DNA of 64,000 nt from Cherax quadricarinatus (taxonomy: Eukaryota; Arthropoda; Malacostraca; Decapoda; Parastacidae), in contig NC_091353.1 of assembly GCF_038502225.1 (NCBI RefSeq), positions 2,684,379 to 2,748,378 of the forward strand, read 5' to 3'. This document shows positions 15,003 through 29,060 of the stretch, one piece after another. The notes beneath the pieces were generated by a model. It was not told the origin of the DNA, did no database searches, and saw only the letters and a program-made list of their open reading frames with translations. The translations under genes and the position numbers were made by a program. Position 1 is the first letter of the stretch; every line of letters begins with the position of its first letter.

Positions 15003-15262
15003 TCACAGGGTGAGGGTATGCGTTCGATTCTCAGCGAGGGTAGAAACATTGGGTGTGTTTCTTTACACCGGTTGTCTATGTTCACCCATCAGTAAAATGG
15101 TTACCTAGGAGTTAGTGGACTGGTGTGGGTCGCATCCTGGGACAAGGACCTAAATTGCGGGAAATGCTCAGCATAACAAGGGACTTTCTACATAGTATGT
15201 CACTGATGTCAGCTATGGTCTGTATACCTTGTACATGTACTGGTAGTAAATATATATACATG
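15003..15262 (+). mobile_element. tRNA-derived SINE-like element
   Basis: The segment contains GTTCGATTC at 15022-15030, which matches the RNA polymerase III B-box of tRNA genes. It is followed by a non-tRNA body (GGTTACCTAGGAGTTAGTGG at 15099 onwards) and an AT-rich 3' tail that runs into a TA microsatellite. A-box, cloverleaf and target-site duplication are not convincing, so it is probably degraded or 5'-truncated. The body piece 15111-15141 closely matches the monomer of the 32-bp satellite at 20219-22318. I see no open frame of its own. Confidence 0.6.
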
Positions 15263-15272
15263 TATATATATG

Positions 15273-15355
<83 letters not shown>
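15263..15355. repeat. TA dinucleotide microsatellite
   Basis: Nearly pure (TA)n of about 85 bp, continuous with the tail of the SINE-like element and followed at once by the 30-bp palindromic minisatellite. Confidence 0.95.
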
Positions 15356-15358
<3 letters not shown>

Positions 15359-15671
15359 TGTATATACACTGTGATATACACCTCTCAGTGTATATACACT
15401 GAGATATACACCTCTCAGTGTATATACACTGAGATATACACCTCTCAGTGTATATACACTAAGATATACACCTCTCAGTGTATATACACTGTGATATACG
15501 CCCCTCAGTGTATATACACTGAGATATACACCTCTCAGTGTATATACACTGAGATATACACCTTTCAATGTATATACACTGAGATATACACCTTTCAATG
15601 TATATACAATAAGATGTACATCTGTCAGTGTATATACACTGAGATATACACCTCTCAGTGTACATACACTG
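15356..15671. repeat. 30-bp minisatellite with 16-bp palindrome, about 10 copies
   Basis: Each 30-bp unit contains the perfect palindrome CAGTGTATATACACTG followed by AGATATACACCTCT. Variants affect single positions (for example ACTAAGAT at 15460, TTTCAATG near 15565). Related single units occur at 17394-17425 and 22796-22846, again beside TA tracts. Open frames of up to about 156 residues here are artefacts. Confidence 0.95.
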
Positions 15672-15712
15672 ACCACCACTGTGGTCCTTGTATTACCATT
15701 GTGGTCCTAACC
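15672..15712. repeat. left part of a CCACTGTGG minisatellite
   Basis: Two or three units of the CCACTGTGGTCCT type. The same repeat resumes at 16552, so the LINE fragment between them interrupted one array. Confidence 0.8.
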
Positions 15713-16551
15713 CACAATGGTTTACCTACTGAGGCTCGCAGGACCCTATGTCTAGCCCTTATACAATGCCATATGGATTACGCTTGCTCTTCTTGGTACT
15801 CTGCCTTGACAAAAAAACTGAAAGATAGACTGCAAATCACCCAGAACAAAATCGTAAGATTCATCCTGGGGCTGGGACCAAGAGAACATGTAGGCCAGGA
15901 TGAATTACAGCAGTTGGATATGCTGAATGTTGAAGACAGAGTAAAACAACTGAAGCTAAATCATGTTTATAAAATTGCTCACAAACAGTGTCCAGAATAT
16001 CTTGCTGTCAATTTTGTCAAGCTTGGGAACCAAAGCAATCATAGTACTAGGGGGAGAGAGCACAACTTTGTAGTACCCACAGTCAGTGGCCAGGCTTCAA
16101 ACACCTTTTATTGTACAGCAATAAAGGAATGGAACAGACTACCCGCACATGTCAAAGCCAGTCATAGCGTGAACCAGTTCAAGAAGAGTGCCAAAAAGTG
16201 TCTGATGAATGTAGCTACAGAAAGGGAGGGGAATGATTTTCTATTTTTTAGCAAACATACGTGTAAATTTTACCTTATTCCTAGTAATGACCCTCGTATT
16301 GTAGATAGTCTTAATGACCCTCGTGTAGTAGATAGTCTTTTTAGTATGATAATAAGATGTTATCTTCATTGTAGAATAATAAGAAAATATTTTAACCTTT
16401 ATATTATAATAATAAGGTAAAAGGACCCCAATGGAAATAAGTCACTCTTTCTGACTTTTTTGTGTTATCCCAGGTTCTCTACACATATGCTGCTATGTAT
16501 GATAATTCTATGTAACTGTATTTGTGTATACCTGAATAAACTTACTTACTT
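15713..16551 (+). mobile_element. 5'-truncated non-LTR retrotransposon (LINE) 3' end
   Basis: This is the last ~840 bp of a LINE: the C-terminal coding part, a stop at 16418-16420, a short 3' region with AATAAA at 16535-16540, and a terminal ACTT tetranucleotide repeat (CTTACTTACTTA). The element sits inside the CCACTGTGG minisatellite, which supports insertion. A clear target-site duplication cannot be separated from the repetitive flanks. The clade is uncertain: the C-terminal region looks like Jockey/CR1/L2-type elements. Confidence 0.8.
15716..16420 (+). pseudogene. C-terminal fragment of a LINE reverse transcriptase
   Basis: The translation contains [20 protein letters not shown], then [16 protein letters not shown] and [20 protein letters not shown]. 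These are typical of the region C-terminal to the reverse-transcriptase palm in Jockey-group LINEs (HLDYAxxxW, IQNKxxRxI and WNxLP motifs). The catalytic motifs (A, B and FADD/YADD) and the endonuclease are missing, so it cannot be autonomous. The frame is open for about 235 codons to the stop, which suggests a fairly recent insertion. Upstream of 15713 the same frame merely continues through minisatellite and TA repeat and should not be counted as protein. Confidence 0.8.
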
Positions 16552-20218: not shown

Positions 20219-22318
20219 TGTTGTGTGGGTGGCATCCTGGGTGTTAGGTGACTGGTGTGGGTGGCATCCTGGGTGTTAGGTGACTGGTGTGGGTGGCATC
20301 CTGGGTGTTAGGTGACTGGTGTGGATGGCATCCTGGGTGTTAATTGACTGGTGTGGGTGGCATCCTGGGTGTTAGGTGACTGGTGTGGGTGGCATCCTGG
20401 GTGTTAGGTGACTGGTGTGGGTGGCATCCTGGGTGTTAGGTGACTGGTGTGGATGGCATCCTGGGTGTTAATTGACTGGTGTGGGTGGCATCCTGGGTGT
20501 TAGGTGACTGGTGTGGGTGGCATCCTGGGTGTTATGTGACTGGTGTGGGTGGCATCCTGGGTGTTAGGTGACTGGTGTGGGTGGCATCCTGGGTGTTAGG
20601 TGACTGGTGTGGGTGGCATCCTGGGTGTTAGGTGACTGGTGTGGATGGCATCCTGGATGTTAATTGACTGGTGTGGGTGGCATCCTGGGTGTTAGGTGAC
20701 TGGTGTGGGTGGCATCCTGGGTGTTATGTGACTGGTGTGGGTGGCATCCTGGGTGTTAGGTGACTGGTGTGGGTGGCATCCTGGGTGTTAGGTGACTGGT
20801 GTGGGTGGCATCCTGGGTGTTAGGTGACTGGTGTGGGTGGCATCCTGGGTGTTAGGTGACTGGTGTGGGTGGCATCCTGGGTGTTAGGTGACTGGTGTGG
20901 ATGGCATCCTGGGTGTTAATTGACTGGTGTGGGTGGCATCCTGGGTGTTAGGTGACTGGTGTGGGTGGCATCCTGGGTGTTATGTGACTGGTGTGGGTGG
21001 CATCCTGGGTGTTAGGTGACTGGTGTGGGTGGCATCCTGGGTGTTAGGTGACTGGTGTTGGTGGCATCCTGGGTGTTAGGTGACTGGTGTGGATGGCATC
21101 CTGGGTGTTAATTGACTGGTGTGGGTGGCATCCTGGGTGTTAGGTGACTGGTGTGGGTGGCATCCTGGGTGTTATGTGACTGGTGTGGGTGGCATCCTGG
21201 GTGTTAGGTGACTGGTGTGGGTGGCATCCTGGGTGTTAGGTGACTGGTGTGGGTGGCATCCTGGGTGTTAGGTGACTGGTGTGGGTGGCATCCTGGGTGT
21301 TAGGTGACTGGTGTGGGTGGCATCCTGGGTGTTAGGTGACTGGTGTGGGTGGCATCCTGGGTGTTAGGTGACTGGTGTGGGTGGCATCCTGGGTGTTAGG
21401 TGACTGGTGTGGGTGGCATCCTGGGTGTTAGGTGACTGGTGTGGGTGGCATCCTGGGTGTTAATTGACTGGTGTGGGTGGCATCCTGTGTGTTAGGTGAC
21501 TGGTGTGGGTGGCATCCTGTATGTTAGGTGACTGGTGTGGGTGGCATCCTGGGTGTTAGGTGACTGGTGTGGGTGGCATCCTGGGTGTTAGGTGACTGGT
21601 GTGGGTGGCATCCTGGGTGTTAATTGACTGGTGTGGGTGGCATCCTGTGTGTTAGGTGACTGGTGTGGGTGGCATCCTGGGTGTTAGGTGACTGGTGTGG
21701 GTGGCATCCTGGGTGTTAGGTGACTGGTGTGGGTGGCATCCTGGGTGTTAATTGACTGGTGTGGGTGGCATCCTGTGTGTTAGGTGACTGGTGTGGGTGG
21801 CATCCTGTGTGTTAGGTGACTGGTGTGGGTGGCATCCTGTGTGTTAGGTGACTGGTGTGGGTGGCATCCTGTGTGTTAGGTGACTGGTGTGGGTGGCATC
21901 CTGTGTGTTAGGTGACTGGTGTGGGTGGCATCCTGTGTGTTAGGTGACTGGTGTAGGTGGCATCCTGTGTGTTAGGTGACTGGTGTGAGTGGCATCCTGT
22001 GTGTTAGGTGACTGGTGTGAGTGGCATCCTGTGTGTTAGGTGACTGGTGTGGGTGGCATCCTGTGTGTTAGGTGACTGGTGTGGGTGGCATCCTGTGTGT
22101 TATGTGACTGGTGTAGGTGGCATCCTGTGTGTTAGGTGACTTGTGTGGGTGGCATCCTGTGTGTTAGGTGACTGGTGTGGGTGGCATCCTGTGTGTTATG
22201 TGACTGGTGTGGGTGGCATCCTGTGTGTTAGGTGACTGGTGTGGGTGGCATCCTGTGTTATGTGACTGGTGTGGGTGGCATCCTGTGTGTTAGGTGACTG
22301 GTGTGGGTGGCATCCTGG
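20219..22318. repeat. 32-bp satellite array, about 66 copies
   Basis: The monomer is 32 bp and contains GACTGGTGTGGGTGGCATCC then TGGGTGTTAGGT. Variant units with TTAATTGACTG occur at multiples of 32 bp (20341, 20469, 20661, 20917, 21109, 21461, 21621, 21749). From about 21760 rightward the predominant form changes from CCTGGGTG to CCTGTGTG. The monomer is nearly identical to SINE positions 15111-15141. Confidence 0.97.
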
Positions 22319-22883
22319 GGTACAAGCGTGAAGGAGAGTACCTCGACATTATACACTACATATGGACCAAGAATACAAACCTCAGTGTCCAGGATGGTAA
22401 AAAATCTTCCCACTTAGAAGCGAATACCAATAAATATACTTAAGATTATTTCCTATCTTTCTAGCAAGCCCATGTAACTAGTTACAAACACTTCTAGCAA
22501 GGGATTCACAGACTTTTAAATATTTTTCGTGTGATCTGCATATTTTATCATCAGTCAGCTAATTACTAGCACGACTGATGTCAATTAGCTAACACCTCTG
22601 ATGCTTTAAAAACAGCCAGATGTGTCAGGTATAGCACATATTTGCTCAGCTCTGCCGTCATAATTACCCATTAATCCACTATAATCACTATAATTCCTTC
22701 AAATACAAAATGTACTAATTAACTTGAACGAGGGTCATTAACGGCTGCTTATCACCTGTGATCTAACAACAGTGTTTGTGATTACAGTATACTTAGTGTA
22801 TACACTGAGATACACACCTCTCAGTGTATATACACTGATATATATATATACACGAAAAACATTGATTCGTTACTGTAGTGAAC
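22319..22883. other. unique spacer with a relic of the palindromic 30-bp unit
   Basis: About 560 bp without long open frames. At 22796-22846 there is a 1.5-unit diverged copy of the 15356-15671 minisatellite (CAGTGTATATACACTG intact) followed by a short TA tract. If the minus-strand gene has a long 3' UTR it could reach here. I found no AATAAA or ATTAAA on the minus strand between 22319 and 23494. Confidence 0.7.
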
Positions 22884-23487
22884 ATGAGGGCTCTGATTGG
22901 TCACTAGGGCACACGTGAAGGCTCTGATTGGTCACTAGGGCACACGTGAAGGCTCTGATTGGTCACTAGGGCACACGTGAAGGCTCTGATTGGCCACTAG
23001 GGTTCTCACGAGAGCACTGATTGACCACTAGTGTCCAGATGAAGACTGATTGACAACTAGGGTTCTCACGAGACTGCTGATTGGCCACTAGTGTCCAGAT
23101 GAAGGCTCTGATTGGCCACTAGGGTTCTCACGAGACTGCTGATTGGCCACTAGTGCGAAGATGAAGACTCTGATTGGCCACTAGGGTTCTCACGAGACTG
23201 CTGATTGGCCAATAGTATCCAGATGAAGACTGATTGGCCACTAGGGTTCTCACGAGACTGCTGATTGGCCACTAGTGTCCAGATGAAGGCTCTGATTGGC
23301 CACTAGGGTTCTCACGAGACTGCTGATTGGCCACTAGTGCGAAGATGAAGACTCTGATTGGCCACTGGGGTTCTCACGAGACTGCTGATTGGCCAATAGT
23401 ATCCAGATGAAGACTGATTGGCCACTAGGGTTCTCACGAGACTGCTGATTGGCCACTAGTGTCCAGGTGAAGGCTCTGACTGGTCAT
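22884..23487. repeat. 31/62-bp ATTGG-rich array with 184-bp higher-order unit
   Basis: The left part (22884-22985) is a simple 31-bp repeat with CTCTGATTGGTCACTAGGG. It then becomes a 62-bp dimer (GATTGGCCACTAGTGTCC and GATTGGCCACTAGGGTTC halves). Three dimers plus a 2-bp deletion make a 184-bp unit, seen from GTGTCC at 23091, 23275 and 23459. Nearly every unit has ATTGG, the reverse complement of CCAAT. The array ends about 8 bp from the stop codon of the minus-strand gene, so it is probably in its 3' UTR. Confidence 0.9.
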
Positions 23488-23494
23488 TAGTGAG

Positions 23495-23583
23495 TTAGAC
23501 GAATGTTGTGATGGTGGTGTGTGGCGCGGCGGTGTTCTTATGGAACTTGGAGATTCTTCTGCGTCTGTTGGGACGAACAAACT
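23495..23583 (-). CDS. dap: CIP/KIP CDK inhibitor, exon 2 (C-terminal, PIP-box/NLS exon)
   Basis: Predicted last coding exon, read right to left. A strong 3' splice site, TTTTCTCTCTCCACACAG, ends at 23584, and the exon then encodes the C-terminal 29 residues to a TAA at 23497-23495. With one base left over from exon 1 the first codon becomes GAG. The peptide EFVRPNRRRRISKFHKN continues the exon-1 end QSCIT, giving Q-x-x-I-T-E-F-V followed by four arginines. This matches, position by position, the PCNA-binding/nuclear-localisation tail of p21-type inhibitors (Q, hydrophobic at 4, T at 5, acidic at 6, aromatic at 7, basic at 12). Position 8, usually aromatic, is Val. Exon lengths 1198 + 89 = 1287 nt are divisible by three. 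Later AG sites would shift the frame to a short, unrelated tail. No transcript evidence is available here. Confidence 0.75.
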
Positions 23584-23649
23584 CTGTGTGGAGAGAGAAA
23601 ACTGAACTTAGCAAATAACTGAGAGATAGACAGGAAGATAGATAGATAC

Positions 23650-26600
23650 AGACACAGGAGAATGAGAAACAAACTGGCAGAAAGAGAGAAAGAGAGGGAC
23701 AATGAGAGACAGACGCAGGAGAATGAGAAACAAACAGGCAGAAAGGGAGAAAGAGAGGGACATTGAGAGACAAAGACACAGGAGAATGAGAAACAAACAG
23801 GCAGAAAGAGAGAGAGAGAGGAACATTGAGAGACAGACACAGGAGAATGAGAAACAAACAGGCAGAAAGGGAGAGAGGTACAATGAGAGGCAGACACAGG
23901 AGAATGAGAAACAAACAGGGAGAAAGAGAGGGAGATTGAGAGACAAAGACACAGGAGAATGAGAAACAAACAGGCAGAAAGGGAGAAAGAGAGGGACATT
24001 GAGAGACAGACACAGGAGAATGAGAAACAAACAGGCAGAAAGAGAGAAAGAGAGGGACAATGAGAGGCAGACACAGGAGAATGAGAAACAAACAGGCAGA
24101 AAGGGAGAAAGAGAGGGACATTGAGAGACAGACACAGGAGAATGAGAAACAAACAGGCAGAAAGGGAGAAAGAGAGGGACAATGAGAGGCAGACACAGGA
24201 GAATGAGAAACAAACAGGCAGAAAGTGAGAAAGAGAGGGACATTGAGAGACAGACACAGGAGAATGAGAAACAAACAGGCAGAAAGTGAGAAAGAGAGGG
24301 ACATTGAGCGACAGACACAGGAGAATGAGAAACAAACAGGCAGAAAGGGAGAAAGAGAGGGACAATGAGAGGCAGACACAGGAGAATGAGAAACAAACAG
24401 GCAGAAAGGGAGAAAGAGAGAGACAATGAGAGGCAGACACAGGAGAATGAGAAACAAACAGGGAGAAAGAGAGGGAGATTGAGAGACAAAGACACAGGAG
24501 AATGAGAAACAAACAGGCAGAAAGGGAGAAAGAGAGGGACATTGAGAGACAGACACAGGAGAATGAGAAACAAACAGGGACATTGAGAGACAAAGACACA
24601 GGAGAATGAGAAACAAACAGGCAGAAAGGGAGAGAGGGACAATGAGAGGCAAACACAGGAGAATGAGAAACAAACAGGCAGAAAGGGAGAAAGAGAGGGA
24701 GATTGAGAGACAAAGACACAGGAGAATGAGAAACGAACAGGCAGAAAGGGAGAAAGAGAGGGACATTGAGAGACAGACACAGAAGAATGAGAAACAAACA
24801 GGCAGAAAGGGAGAAAGAGAGAGACAATGAGAGGCAGACACAGGAGAATGAGAAACAAACAGGGAGAAAGAGAGGGAGATTGAGAGACAAAGACACAGGA
24901 GAATGAGAAACAAACAGGCAGAAAGGGAGAAAGAGAGGGACATTGAGAGACAGACACAGGAGAATGAGAAACAAACAGGGAGAAAGGGAGAAAGAGGGAC
25001 ATTGAGAGACAGACACAGGAGAATGAGAAACAAACAGGCAAAAAGGGAGAACGAGAGGGACAATGAGAGGCAGACACAGGAGAATGAGAAACAAACAGGC
25101 AGAAAGGGAGAAAGAGAGGGACATTGAGAGGCAGACACAGGAGAATGAGAAACAAACAGGCAGAAAGGGAGAAAGAGAGGGAGATTGAGAGACAGACACA
25201 GGAGAATGAGAAACAAACAGGCAGAAAGGGAGAAAGAGAGGGACATTGAGAGGCAGACACAGGAGAATGAGAAACAAACAGGCAGAAAGGGAGAAAGAGG
25301 GACATTGAGAGACAGACACAGGAGAATGAGAAACAAACAGGCAGAAAGGGAGAAAGAGAGGGACATTGAGAGACAAAGACACAGGAGAATGAGAAACAAA
25401 CAGGCAGAAAGGGAGAAAGAGAGGGACATTGAGAGACAAAGACACAGGAGAATGAGAAACAAACAGGCAGAAAGGGAGAAAGAGAGGGACATTGAGAGAC
25501 AAAGACACAGGAGAATGAGAAACAAACAGGCAGAAAGGGAGAAAGAGAGGGACATTGAGAGACAAAGACACAGGAGAATGAGAAACAAACAGGCAGAAAG
25601 GGAGAAAGAGAGGGACATTGAGAGACAAAGACACAGGAGAATGAGAAACAAACAGGCAGAAAGGGAGAAAGAGAGGGACATTGAGAGACAAAGACACAGG
25701 AGAATGAGAAACAAACAGGCAGAAAGGGAGAAAGAGAGGGACATTGAGAGACAAACACAGGAGAATGAGAAACAAACAGGCAGAAAGGGAGAAAGAGAGG
25801 GACAATGAGAGACAGACACAGGAGAATGAGAAACAAACAGGCAGAAAGGGAGAAAGAGAGGGACATTGAGAGACAGACACAGGAGAATGAGAAACAAACA
25901 GGCAGAAAGGGAGAAAGAGGGACATTGAGAGACAGACACAGGAGAATGAGAAACAAACAGGCAGAAAGGGAGAAAGAGAGGGACATTGAGAGACAGACAC
26001 AGGAGAATGAGAAACAAACAGGCAGAAAGGGAGAAAGAGAGGGACATTGAGAGACAAAGACACAGGAGAATGAGAAACAAACAGGCAGAAAGTGAGAAAG
26101 AGAGGGACATTGAGCGACAGACACAGGAGAATGAGAAACAAACAGGCAGAAAGGGAGAAAGAGAGGGACATTGAGAGACAAACACAGGAGAATGAGAAAC
26201 AAACAGGCAGAAAGGGAGAAAGAGAGGGACATTGAGAGACAAACACAGGAGAATGAGAAACAAACAGACAGAAAGTGAGAAAGAGAGGGACATTGAGAGG
26301 CAGACACAGGAGAATGAGAAACAAACAGGCAGAAAGGGAGAAAGAGAGGGACAATGAGAGACAGACACAGGAGAATGAGAAACAAACAGGCAGAAAGGGA
26401 GAAAGAGAGGGACAATGAGAGACAGACACAGGAGAATGAGAAACAAACAGGCAGAAAGGGAGAAAGAGAGGGACAATGAGAGACAGACACAGGAGAATGA
26501 GAAACAAACAGGCAGAAAGGGAGAAAGAGAGGGACATTGAGAGACAAAGACACAGGAGAATGAGAAACAAACAGGCAGAAAGTGAGAAAGAGAGGGACAT

Positions 26601-26965
26601 TGAGAGACAGACACAGGAGAATGAGAAACAAACAGGCAGAAAGGGAGAAAGAGAGGGACAATGAGAGACAGACACAGGAGAATGAGAAACAAACAGGCAG
26701 AAAGGGAGAAAGAGAGGGACAATGAGAGACAGACACAGGAGAATGAGAAACAAACAGGCAGAAAGGGAGAAAGAGAGGGACAATGAGAGACAGACACAGG
26801 AGAATGAGAAACAAACAGGCAGAAAGGGAGAAAGAGAGGGACAATGAGAGACAGACACAGGAGAATGAGAAACAAACAGGCAGAAAGGGAGAAAGAGAGG
26901 GACAATGAGAGACAGACACAGGAGAATGAGAAACAAACAGGCAGAAAGGGAGAAAGAGAGACAAA
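23650..26965. repeat. 61-bp satellite array (61/63-bp units), about 54 copies, intronic
   Basis: The plus strand is purine-rich: GAGAAACAAACAGGCAGAAA, GGGAGAAAGAGAGGGACATT, then GAGAGACAGACACAGGAGAA. Units are 61 bp, or 63 bp where ACAGACAC becomes ACAAAGACAC. A run of 63-bp units at about 25316-25745 looks recently amplified. A few shorter units occur near 23860, 24580 and 24620. All three minus-strand frames stay open for over 1100 codons, because TTA, CTA and TCA are absent on the plus strand. These frames are low-complexity artefacts, not proteins. Within the array I saw essentially no CT on the plus strand, that is no AG on the gene's sense strand. Confidence 0.95.
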
Positions 26966-27221
26966 AAGAGACTGAGAGGGGAGAAAGAGAAAGAAATATA
27001 AAGACGAATAAATATGAAAGACAGGTATAAATAAGAGCACTGAAGAAACAGAGGTAAAAGATGGAAAGAGGAAAACATAGAAGAAAATATAGAAGGAAAA
27101 AATCTCAACTTTAAATTACAATTTTTCCTAAAATATTATTTTATTAATTTTAAATATTGGTTAAGCTAATCTATATTAGGTTAAATTAATAATAATAAAT
27201 ATTAAATATCTACATTAGGTA
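26966..27221. other. AT-rich intronic sequence
   Basis: A decaying edge of the purine-rich satellite (to about 27090) followed by AT-rich sequence. No independent feature was seen. It lies within the predicted intron. Confidence 0.6.
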
Positions 27222-27223
27222 AA

Positions 27224-27281
<58 letters not shown>

Positions 27282-27288
27282 TAATAAT

Positions 27289-27354
<66 letters not shown>
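27222..27354. repeat. (AAT)n trinucleotide microsatellite
   Basis: About 130 bp of nearly pure AAT repeat with one interruption near 27280. On the gene's sense strand it is (TTA)n, starting within the first 10 bases of the predicted intron. Reading through the donor would give a poly-Leu/Tyr tail, which is clearly not coding. Confidence 0.95.
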
Positions 27355-27358
27355 TTAC

Positions 27359-28556
27359 CTGTTATACAGCTCTGGCGGAGTGAAATTTGAATGGGGTTTG
27401 ATACACCGCTGCCAGCCGTAGTTCTCGCTCGTTTGTATTGCTTCACTTCGGTGCCAGACGTAGTTCTCGCTCGTTTGTATTGCTTCACTTCGCTGCCAGA
27501 CGCAGATGTATCGTTAATAAACGTGGCTGCGTCGTTATTAGACTTAGATACGTCGTTATTGGACGTTAATGCGTCGTTCTTCGGTGCAGTTGCCTCGCTG
27601 CCAGACGATGATTCGTCGTTTTCATACTGTGCGATCTGGCTGCCAGACGTAGACGCGTCTTTCGTATTTTTTCCTCTGACGTTGCCAGACGTAAGTGAGT
27701 CCTTCACTGACGTACATGTGTCGCTTGACGTAAGCGTAACGATGTTTGACGGCGATATGTTCTTAGATACAGATGTGTCGTTATATGACGGAGAGATCCC
27801 GCTGCCAGACGTAGTGGTGCCGTTGTTGCATGGCATTGACGAAACAGTGTGGGTGCCAGACGTAGGTGACACAGCAGTGTGGGTGTCAGACGCAGGTAAC
27901 GCAACAGTGTGGGTGCCAGACGCAGGTAACGCAACAGTGTGGGTGCCAGACGCAGGTGATGCAACGGTGTGGATGCTAGACGCGGGTGACGCAGCAGTAT
28001 GGGTGCCAGGCGCATGTGACGCAACAGTGTGGGTGCCAGACGTAGGTAACGCAGTAGTGTAGGTACCAGACGCAGGTGATGCAACAGTGTGGGTGTCAGA
28101 CGTAGGTGACGTAGCAGTGTGGGTGCCAGACGCAGGTGACGGAACAGCGTGGGTGCCAGACGCAGGTGACGCAACAGTGTGGGTGCCAGACGCAGGTGAC
28201 GCAACAGTGTGGGTGCCAGACGCAGGTGACGCAACAGTGTGGGTGCCAGACGCAGGTGACGCAACAGTGTGGGTGCCAAACGCAAGTGAGTGGCGGTCAG
28301 TAAGTACAGTGGCACTGACCAGGTCACTGTGGTGGTCAGGAAGTACTGTGGCACTAACCAGGTCACTGCAGGTCACACGCTGCCACCGGAAGTGACCTTC
28401 GTTCACCGGAACTTCTCTTATTGGATCAAAATTCCATTTTTTTCTGAATTCCTGGGCCGAGATGGTGAGGAGTGACTCTGCCAGTTGTAGGTTGTGTTTA
28501 CTGTGGCTTAGGCCTAGAGGGAGCGCCCTCCTGGCTGAGCCTACACGCTTCACCAT
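27359..28556 (-). CDS. dap: CIP/KIP-type cyclin-dependent kinase inhibitor, exon 1 (dacapo-like)
   Basis: Predicted to bind cyclin-CDK complexes and restrain the cell cycle in the nucleus, as p21, p27 and dacapo do. Start chosen: ATG at 28556-28554, which has A at -3 and G at +4; an ATG just before it (28559) and one at 28604 are alternatives. Residues about 8-62 form the CDK-inhibitor domain: RRALPLG (RxL cyclin-docking), a 27-residue spacing from that Gly to Trp41 identical to human p21 by my count, then KKWNFDP and FRWQRV. Residues 65-91 contain a duplicated SDLVSATVL segment. Residues about 95-239 are a TVASPASGTH-type 10-residue repeat. Then a Ser/Asn/Asp-rich linker follows, and a doubled KQYKRARTT (about 358-380) that may be a nuclear signal. 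The exon ends ...QSCIT plus one base at a good donor. At 428 residues the spliced protein is longer than usual family members (about 160-320), owing to the repeats. The FYxRP-like CDK-blocking motif is not seen. Identity is from motif reading, not a database search. Confidence 0.8.
27424..27507 (-). repeat. 42-bp coding duplication (KQYKRARTT segment)
   Basis: Two 42-bp copies (GTTCTCGCTCGTTTGTATTG begins at 27421 and again at 27463) encode the duplicated basic segment near the end of exon 1. The duplication is in frame and nearly identical. Confidence 0.88.
27840..28285 (-). repeat. 30-bp coding minisatellite in exon 1, about 15 units
   Basis: Plus-strand units of 30 bp contain GTGGGTGCCAGACGCAGGTG and ACGCAACAGT. 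On the minus strand each unit encodes about ten residues of type TVASPASGTH. Units differ at scattered positions, but the length stays a multiple of three throughout, as expected if the array is translated. The rightmost units (28130-28275) are the most alike. Confidence 0.93.
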
Positions 28557-29060
28557 CATTCTAGCTCTTGGTCTCCAGGGTTTGAGAGGCTGGAGGATGA
28601 CCATTATCTGGGCGGGTGACGAAGATCTCACTCAGACGGAGGCTGGAGCCGCACTGAACATTAGTGACGTAGCAGACACTGAGGTAAGCTCCGCCCCTCG
28701 ATCACCTGATTGGTCAGCTGCTGTAAATGATGTCATAGATCTTCTTTACCGTCATAAGTGACGTCATAGATCGTCTTTACCACCTCTACCTTCTTTCTCA
28801 TTTCTCATCTTTATTTATACTATTATTCTAAAATTATTACATCGAAATTTATATTGAAGGAAAGCAGTTTATATATATATAATAAGTGTCAATACAATCT
28901 GGCAACTTTTGTAGACTCAAGCAGACTCCTCTATGACGTCACTGACAAGCGAGCATTCTATTGGCCACGAGTAAGATGTCAGGGACAAGAAGGCACCTCA
29001 TTGGCCACAAATACGACGTTATAGACAAGCAAACACCTTACTGGCCAGTCGTAATGAAAT
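28557..29060 (-). promoter_or_regulatory. putative promoter/upstream region of the CDK inhibitor gene
   Basis: Going upstream from the start codon on the minus strand: a GC-box (CCGCCCC at 28691-28697), an inverted CCAAT box (ATTGG at 28709-28713), a perfect CRE palindrome TGACGTCA at 28759-28766 and a second at 28934-28941. Further ATTGG sites lie at 28960-28964 and 29000-29004. The outer part (about 28930-29060) is an imperfect three-copy repeat of about 40-50 bp. The transcription start is not visible, and an upstream untranslated exon cannot be excluded. Confidence 0.5.

Follow-up and report, generated by a model that had tools for sequence, protein, structure and literature searches.

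Does a satellite block in a decapod genome hide an intact cell-cycle inhibitor gene, and if so, of what kind? The question is raised by a stretch of 64,000 nucleotides of Cherax quadricarinatus (C62:2684379-2748378 in an assembly of 3.95 Gb), here called the window, in whose repeats an earlier note had read a two-exon gene of the CIP/KIP family of cyclin-dependent kinase (CDK) inhibitors. Our analysis leaves us confident, from the sequence and its relatives, that this is an intact decapod gene, that its splice is as proposed and that it is of CIP/KIP type. What the protein does to its kinase is a less settled matter and is discussed with the rival explanations below.

The family assignment came from the N-terminal region. 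As the earlier note had described, RRALPLG (28532), KKWNFDP (28442) and FRWQRV (28391) follow each other in this order on the minus strand, and each was found once in the six-frame translation of the window. The domain elements are a RALPLG motif resembling the cyclin-docking one, KKWNFDP and HFRWQRV, and the CDK-binding core WNFD...W..V is present (KKWNFDPIREVPVNEGHFRWQRV). The LG-to-W distance is 26 residues, equal to that in both canonical genes on C95 described below, although LFG itself is not kept. In agreement with the proposed family, the Pfam CDI domain (PF02234) was matched by the spliced protein with 33 bits (E 6.5e-8) and by the N-terminal piece with 36.7 bits (E 4.4e-9), against a cut-off of 25. 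The best match of the domain among solved structures was p21 (6p8h, E 9e-5, residues 41-78).

The gene model was reproduced to the base. With the donor ACAG/GTAAAT (first intron base 27358) and the acceptor TCTCTCTCCACACAG/AG (last intron base 23584), 3775 bp are removed and the exons join into a 1287-nt frame of 428 residues and a stop. That length is correct for the frame as first read. An in-frame ATG at 28604, with the closest in-frame stop upstream at 28634, 30 bases away, adds MVILQPLKPWRPRARM to it, and is likely to be the start codon because the Homarus, Procambarus and Penaeus proteins begin with MVVLQP, where the window protein reads MVILQP; the protein would then have 444 residues. 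In genome coordinates the gene runs from 2712982 down to 2707873. The statement that both exons are embedded in far longer open frames held for exon 2, which sits in a frame of 1181 residues, but not for exon 1, whose frame of 473 residues barely exceeds the exon (Table 1).

Table 1. Features of the window and related loci (window positions unless a contig is named).
Feature	Position	Strand	Description
Exon 1 (coding part)	27359..28604	-	Open reading frame up to the donor; start backed by MVVLQP of relatives. Content, 5' to 3': N-terminal kinase-inhibitory region, 10-residue coding minisatellite, Ser/Thr-rich linker, QSCIT (first PCNA-box-like half)
CDI / kinase-inhibitory domain	28374..28604	-	PF02234 match, alignment with relatives
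Coding minisatellite	27837..28289	-	In-frame, 30 bp, about 15 units of GTHTVASPAS
Intron	23584..27358	-	3775 bp, GT...AG, phase 1, 93% tandem repeat
Exon 2	23495..23583	-	EFV (second PCNA-box-like half), basic cluster RPNRRRR, tail, stop
61-bp intronic satellite	23644..26960	.	Tandem Repeats Finder (TRF); pyrimidine-rich on the sense strand of the gene
TAA/TTA microsatellite	27220..27354	.	Directly after the donor; TRF period 3
31/62-bp array	22882..23490	.	Starts just past the stop codon; 19 CAATCA sites
Putative promoter	28620..28770	-	TGACGTCA (28766), CCAAT (28713), GGGGCGG (28697), TCAGT (28657); consensus matches only
CDI locus	C95:4518026		72.9 bits; canonical p27-like
CDI locus	C95:5792260		63.5 bits; canonical p27-like
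CDI locus	C62:2639081		41.2 bits; neighbour of the window gene
CDI locus	C62		Window gene; 36.9 bits in the genome-wide search
C62 neighbour gene	2638922-2678125		Likely start 2638922, donor 2639454, acceptor end 2678006, stop 2678125
Short contigs			P0004 1091, P0009 1120, P0012 1677, P0013 1216, P0014 1447, P0016 1165, P0019 1696 bp

Outside the window, the splice is backed by relatives and by a paralogue. In Procambarus P0002 and Panulirus P0010 the start encoded by exon 1 and the tail encoded by exon 2 occur in one protein, and the C-termini of the two match exon 2 (Procambarus LRQTCITDFAWPSKRRRLIDLQKNTALHPPISAFV; Panulirus LRQTCITEFARPSKRRRLVKFHKGTTLHPPISAIV; spliced window protein LRQSCITEFVRPNRRRRISKFHKNTAAPHTTITTFV). 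Two penaeid-like proteins, P0005 and P0006, read through to CITGK at the window's CIT/G point, as the window would with its intron retained (CITGKLL). Start and tail also stand together on seven short contigs of 1091-1696 bp, which suggests spliced transcripts in relatives, or short-intron genes. The C-terminal intron lies at a homologous site, shared in position and phase with the neighbouring paralogue on C62: the same codon of the same motif is split after its first base, as CKIT/G-AC in the neighbour and CIT/G-AG in the window gene. Both comparisons bear out the junction that had been proposed.

The relatives were found by word-based searches, and the figures given concern the matches listed. 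With the N-terminal region as query, 15 candidates yielded 9 proteins at E <=1. All 9 have a CDI domain, and the five that carry a name come from Homarus, Procambarus, Penaeus (two) and the krill Meganyctiphanes. With the full protein, at least 9 further proteins were found among 8000 scored candidates (named: Panulirus, Penaeus monodon, Palaemon, Halocaridina and Meganyctiphanes), and a profile built from 13 of 18 relatives gave at least 18 matches, 5 of them new, including 4 from Meganyctiphanes. Of the 5.8 billion proteins in the database, the best relative reached E 5.9e-22, and decapod and krill relatives show 53-64% identity over the matched stretch, agreeing at the start, the core and the tail. 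The named relatives are all decapods and krill; since the searches were word-based and capped, an absence of relatives outside these groups is not established. No near-identical protein was among the matches of the N-terminal and full-protein searches and, because the best identity was 64%, the protein of the window locus appears to be absent from the database. This fits the earlier expectation that an automated caller would miss the gene, though it is not proof of it. Nothing on a decapod CIP/KIP branch was found in the open-access literature, which is weak evidence of absence. The proteins of Procambarus clarkii (P0002, 261 residues), Panulirus ornatus (P0010, 414 residues) and Homarus americanus (P0001, 175 residues) are uncharacterised CDI-domain proteins that share with the window gene the MVVLQP-type start, an RRALPLG-like motif, the KKWNFDP core and the lack of a 3-10 helix motif. 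The tail LRQTCIT[D/E]F...KRRR of P0002 and P0010 is likewise common to the window gene, while P0001 stops short of it.

No other locus is the only CIP/KIP gene of this genome: in a profile search of the whole assembly, four CDI loci passed the Pfam cut-off, and a fifth row, at 18.9 bits, lay below it and contains a stop. One of 14 control genomes gave a CDI signal, under the cut-off. The two loci on C95 carry KNLFG or RSLFG, WNFDF and VPQAY, and matched p27 structures with E-values of 2.4e-14 and 1.8e-12, VPQAY aligning near LPEFYY of p27. Because these two canonical p27-like genes exist, the window gene is not of the plain p27/dacapo type and, judged by its motifs, is not the canonical p27-type gene of the genome. 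The CIP/KIP family proposed in the earlier note is supported, with the refinement that the canonical type, with LFG and the helix motif, is represented by the C95 pair.

The same division was seen in a tree of 27 rows (23 database proteins and the 4 genes of this genome) and 63 columns, where a split supported at 100/99 sets the two C95 rows apart from the remaining 25. Homarus, Panulirus and Procambarus group with the window row at 93/96, Homarus being 71% identical to it over 62 tree columns, and P0008 and P0009 group with the C62 neighbour at 94/90. The canonical side consists of the two C95 rows only, and relationships inside the branch are unsure, with stars on only 2 of the 20 inner branches and 10 of them open. 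A VPxxY-like helix motif was found in none of the 25 branch rows, in contrast to VPQAY in both C95 copies, and 23 of the 25 carry no aromatic residue among the 25 positions that follow the W..V strand. In the window protein no Y, F or W occurs in this interval, so that it shows no Tyr-bearing 3-10 helix. The branch appears to be a divergent one without LFG and without this helix motif, the part that plugs the kinase in mammals.

At the other end of the protein, a motif resembling the PCNA-interacting protein (PIP) box is present only after splicing. In the PIP box or degron, Q-x-x-[ILM]-T-D-[FY]-[FY], position +4 is basic; QSCITEFVRPNR fits this rule only in part, at the Q, I, T and F and at the basic +4. 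The form Q-x-x-I-T-[D/E/A]-[F/Y] occurs in 20 rows of the 25-row branch, 7 of them with D, 11 with E and 2 with A; among the five others, P0001, P0020 and P0021 end earlier, and P0005 and P0006 enter the intron.

We propose, tentatively and with considerable doubt, that a decapod and krill branch of CIP/KIP proteins has kept cyclin-CDK docking and the splice-created PCNA motif but lost the ATP-site plug, its members being replication-coupled adaptors or assembly factors beside two canonical p27-like inhibitors. The protein would dock on the cyclin and on the CDK N-lobe, its basic run would send it to the nucleus, and its tail would recruit it to PCNA on replicating DNA. Destruction in S phase through CRL4-Cdt2 would probably follow, as reported for the PIP degron of Dacapo (PMC5586379). 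With no Tyr-bearing 3-10 helix motif anywhere in the branch, cyclin-CDK would be bound without plugging of the ATP site. Inhibition would act mainly through blocked substrate docking, or the protein would have a replication-coupled adaptor role, full shut-off of CDK2 being left to the canonical copies. The satellites, spliced out or outside the gene, hinder its annotation and are unneeded to explain its function.

Several observations weigh against this account of the gene. The cyclin motif of the window protein is not LFG. Two branch rows carry an aromatic residue soon after the core, a Y at position 3 in Homarus and an F at position 23 in P0016, neither in a VPxxY setting, and a residue farther along the linker could reach the ATP site. 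The match to the PIP rule is imperfect, with a V instead of an aromatic residue at position 8 and an E instead of D at position 6, which weakens the analogy by which the tail may act as a Dacapo-like S-phase degron. When compared with solved structures, the junction tail matched no PCNA peptide, its sole match being the ribosomal protein eL15 at E 0.57. In the coding minisatellite no sign of selection on the amino acids was seen: only the frame is kept, and of 36 changes in 15 units, 9 are synonymous against 12.1 expected if the changes are redistributed over bases of the same kind (the probability of at least 9 is 0.91), with 9 third-position changes against 12.4 expected.

The step without a plug has to be set against a classical CIP/KIP inhibitor with full inhibition of CDK2, in which the 3-10 helix is replaced or dispensable; the two stand about even, and the classical inhibitor, which rivals this step only, has in our estimate slightly less than an even chance. 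Retention of the WNFD and W..V elements and of the motif spacing speaks for it, as does p21 as the best structural match, whereas the two C95 genes match p27 much more closely and have the LFG and VPQAY that the window branch is without. Surroundings of 92% tandem repeat and the coding repeat without purifying selection would also suit a decaying or silent pseudogene within the satellite block. Such a pseudogene is very unlikely, given 444 open codons, an intact donor and acceptor, the 71% identity to Homarus and a conserved tail after the junction, and the locus is not a retrocopy because the intron is kept. Long satellite open frames are common in the window and might by chance resemble a gene, but the CDI match (E 4.4e-9) and the relatives at E ~1e-21 fall in the non-repeat part of exon 1, and the exon-2 tail matches Procambarus and Panulirus; such homologues refute chance, whose probability we consider negligible.

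The window protein shares with p27Kip1, p21Cip1, p57Kip2 and Dacapo (the last not compared by sequence) a cyclin-side motif, a CDK-side core, a long linker and a C-terminal motif resembling the PCNA type. It differs from the first three in lacking LFG and the 3-10 helix Tyr, in reading WNFDP rather than WNFDF and in the kind of linker repeat. Human p57 reportedly also has a repeat-rich (PAPA) middle, and p57 two coding exons (PMC7575724). The branch, which seems to keep binding and PCNA coupling and to drop the plug, may show, as a natural experiment, how much of the p27-type inhibitory domain is required. Many crustaceans grow continually and regenerate limbs, which makes an enlarged set of cell-cycle brakes worth testing there. 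Satellites that occupy an intron and part of an exon may also cause mis-modelling, as Homarus P0001 and krill P0020 and P0021 end before the tail. To the earlier note this analysis adds the start site, external support for the splice, a neighbour that shares the intron site, two canonical copies elsewhere in the genome and the absence of the plug motif.

The linker, 333 residues long in the window gene, ranges from 91 to 329 residues among the remaining 24 rows of the branch, being measured to the protein end in the five motif-less rows. Periodicity above all 200 shuffles was found in 5 of the 25 rows, with best periods of 20 in the window gene (twice its 10-residue unit), 7 in Panulirus, 16 in krill P0018, 19 in P0020 and 16 in P0021. 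As there are at least three kinds of unit, linker repeats probably arose more than once. The minisatellite of 15 units (TRF: period 30, 15.1 copies, 0% indels) is the window gene's own, in contrast to the period of 7 in Panulirus and none above shuffles in Procambarus. The linker holds 12 S/T-P sites, 10 of them in repeat units. Derivation of the coding repeat from an adjacent satellite is at most a possibility: compared with the 32-bp unit at 20223 it scored 19, against a best of 18 in 60 shuffles, but in one of 28 comparisons, and the only other unit to beat all its shuffles was the 42-bp unit of the same exon.

The C62 neighbour and the window gene lie tail-to-tail with about 30 kb between them. 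The neighbour encodes 216 residues, its intron of 38,553 bp is 70% tandem repeat, and its spliced junction reads KITDYG (CKIT/G + AC-TAT). It resembles the window gene in its CDI match over the cut-off, its intron site and phase, its PIP-like QCKITDYG and its repeat-filled intron, and differs in its likeness to krill P0008/P0009, the length of the intron and a 91-residue linker without repeat. A 21-bp array (L003:4486-4894) lies directly upstream of its likely start ATG, in its open frame, and may be 5' untranslated region or an N-terminal extension. In Meganyctiphanes norvegica, six divergent-branch proteins were found (P0008, P0018, P0020-P0023), five of them in one tight group at 100/100, and some of the six could be alleles. 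The C95:5792260 gene (L011:958-1968, minus strand) has its RxLFG cyclin-docking segment duplicated in tandem (RIGHIRRKLFGPSSTNTQDRIGHTRRSLFGPIDHE), with a PIP-like QKLCTDFF within the RxLFG open frame, and the C95:4518026 gene (L010:1255-2664, plus strand) has a Ser/Thr/Lys/Pro repeat, SSTSKPT, in its linker.

Tandem repeats occupy 92% of the window and 35 to 94% of seven neighbouring stretches of about 10 kb. In 19 10-kb pieces from elsewhere the mean is 19%, the median 9% and the maximum 97%, figures lowered by N runs in 5 of the pieces (3 about half N). The satellite block is unusual, not unique. No paper on decapod or crayfish satellites was found in the open-access literature, which is weak evidence of absence. 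Pieces L028 and L029 show 67-79% resemblance to the 61-bp satellite, to which shared composition may contribute (low-complexity filter off). The intronic satellite region (23495-27108, minus strand) is open in three sense frames of 1181, 1132 and 1166 residues, a trap for gene callers. Exclusion of AG from the satellite was also considered: its 3317 bases hold a single AG, where mononucleotide shuffles give 17.9, and 3298 nt pass without one. Because GA, a dinucleotide that plays no part in splicing, likewise has a count of 0, the scarcity reflects pyrimidine composition and homogenisation and is not evidence of selection. The Drosophila Y-linked genes kl-3 and kl-5 reportedly have gigantic introns containing satellite DNA (PMC6508621). 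Satellite DNA within an intron is common to them and to the present genes; the introns are megabase-sized in Drosophila but measure 3.8 kb in the window gene and 38.6 kb in its neighbour.

Rfam (gathering threshold) and tRNA scans of the whole window gave 0 matches. A frame of 431 residues lies at 15125-16420 (plus strand), whose second half looks like the 3' end of a reverse transcriptase of the long interspersed nuclear element type; 15794-16420 had no Pfam family over the cut-off. The motifs listed at 28620..28770 are named as what we take to be promoter elements. Conservation of the CAATCA core in the downstream array was discarded as partly an artefact of core-based site picking, the flanks differing through alternating unit types. 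The 8-mer CCAATCAG (sense strand) occurs 17 times in this post-stop array (22893-23452) and once in the putative promoter (28706-28713), and nowhere else on either strand of the window.

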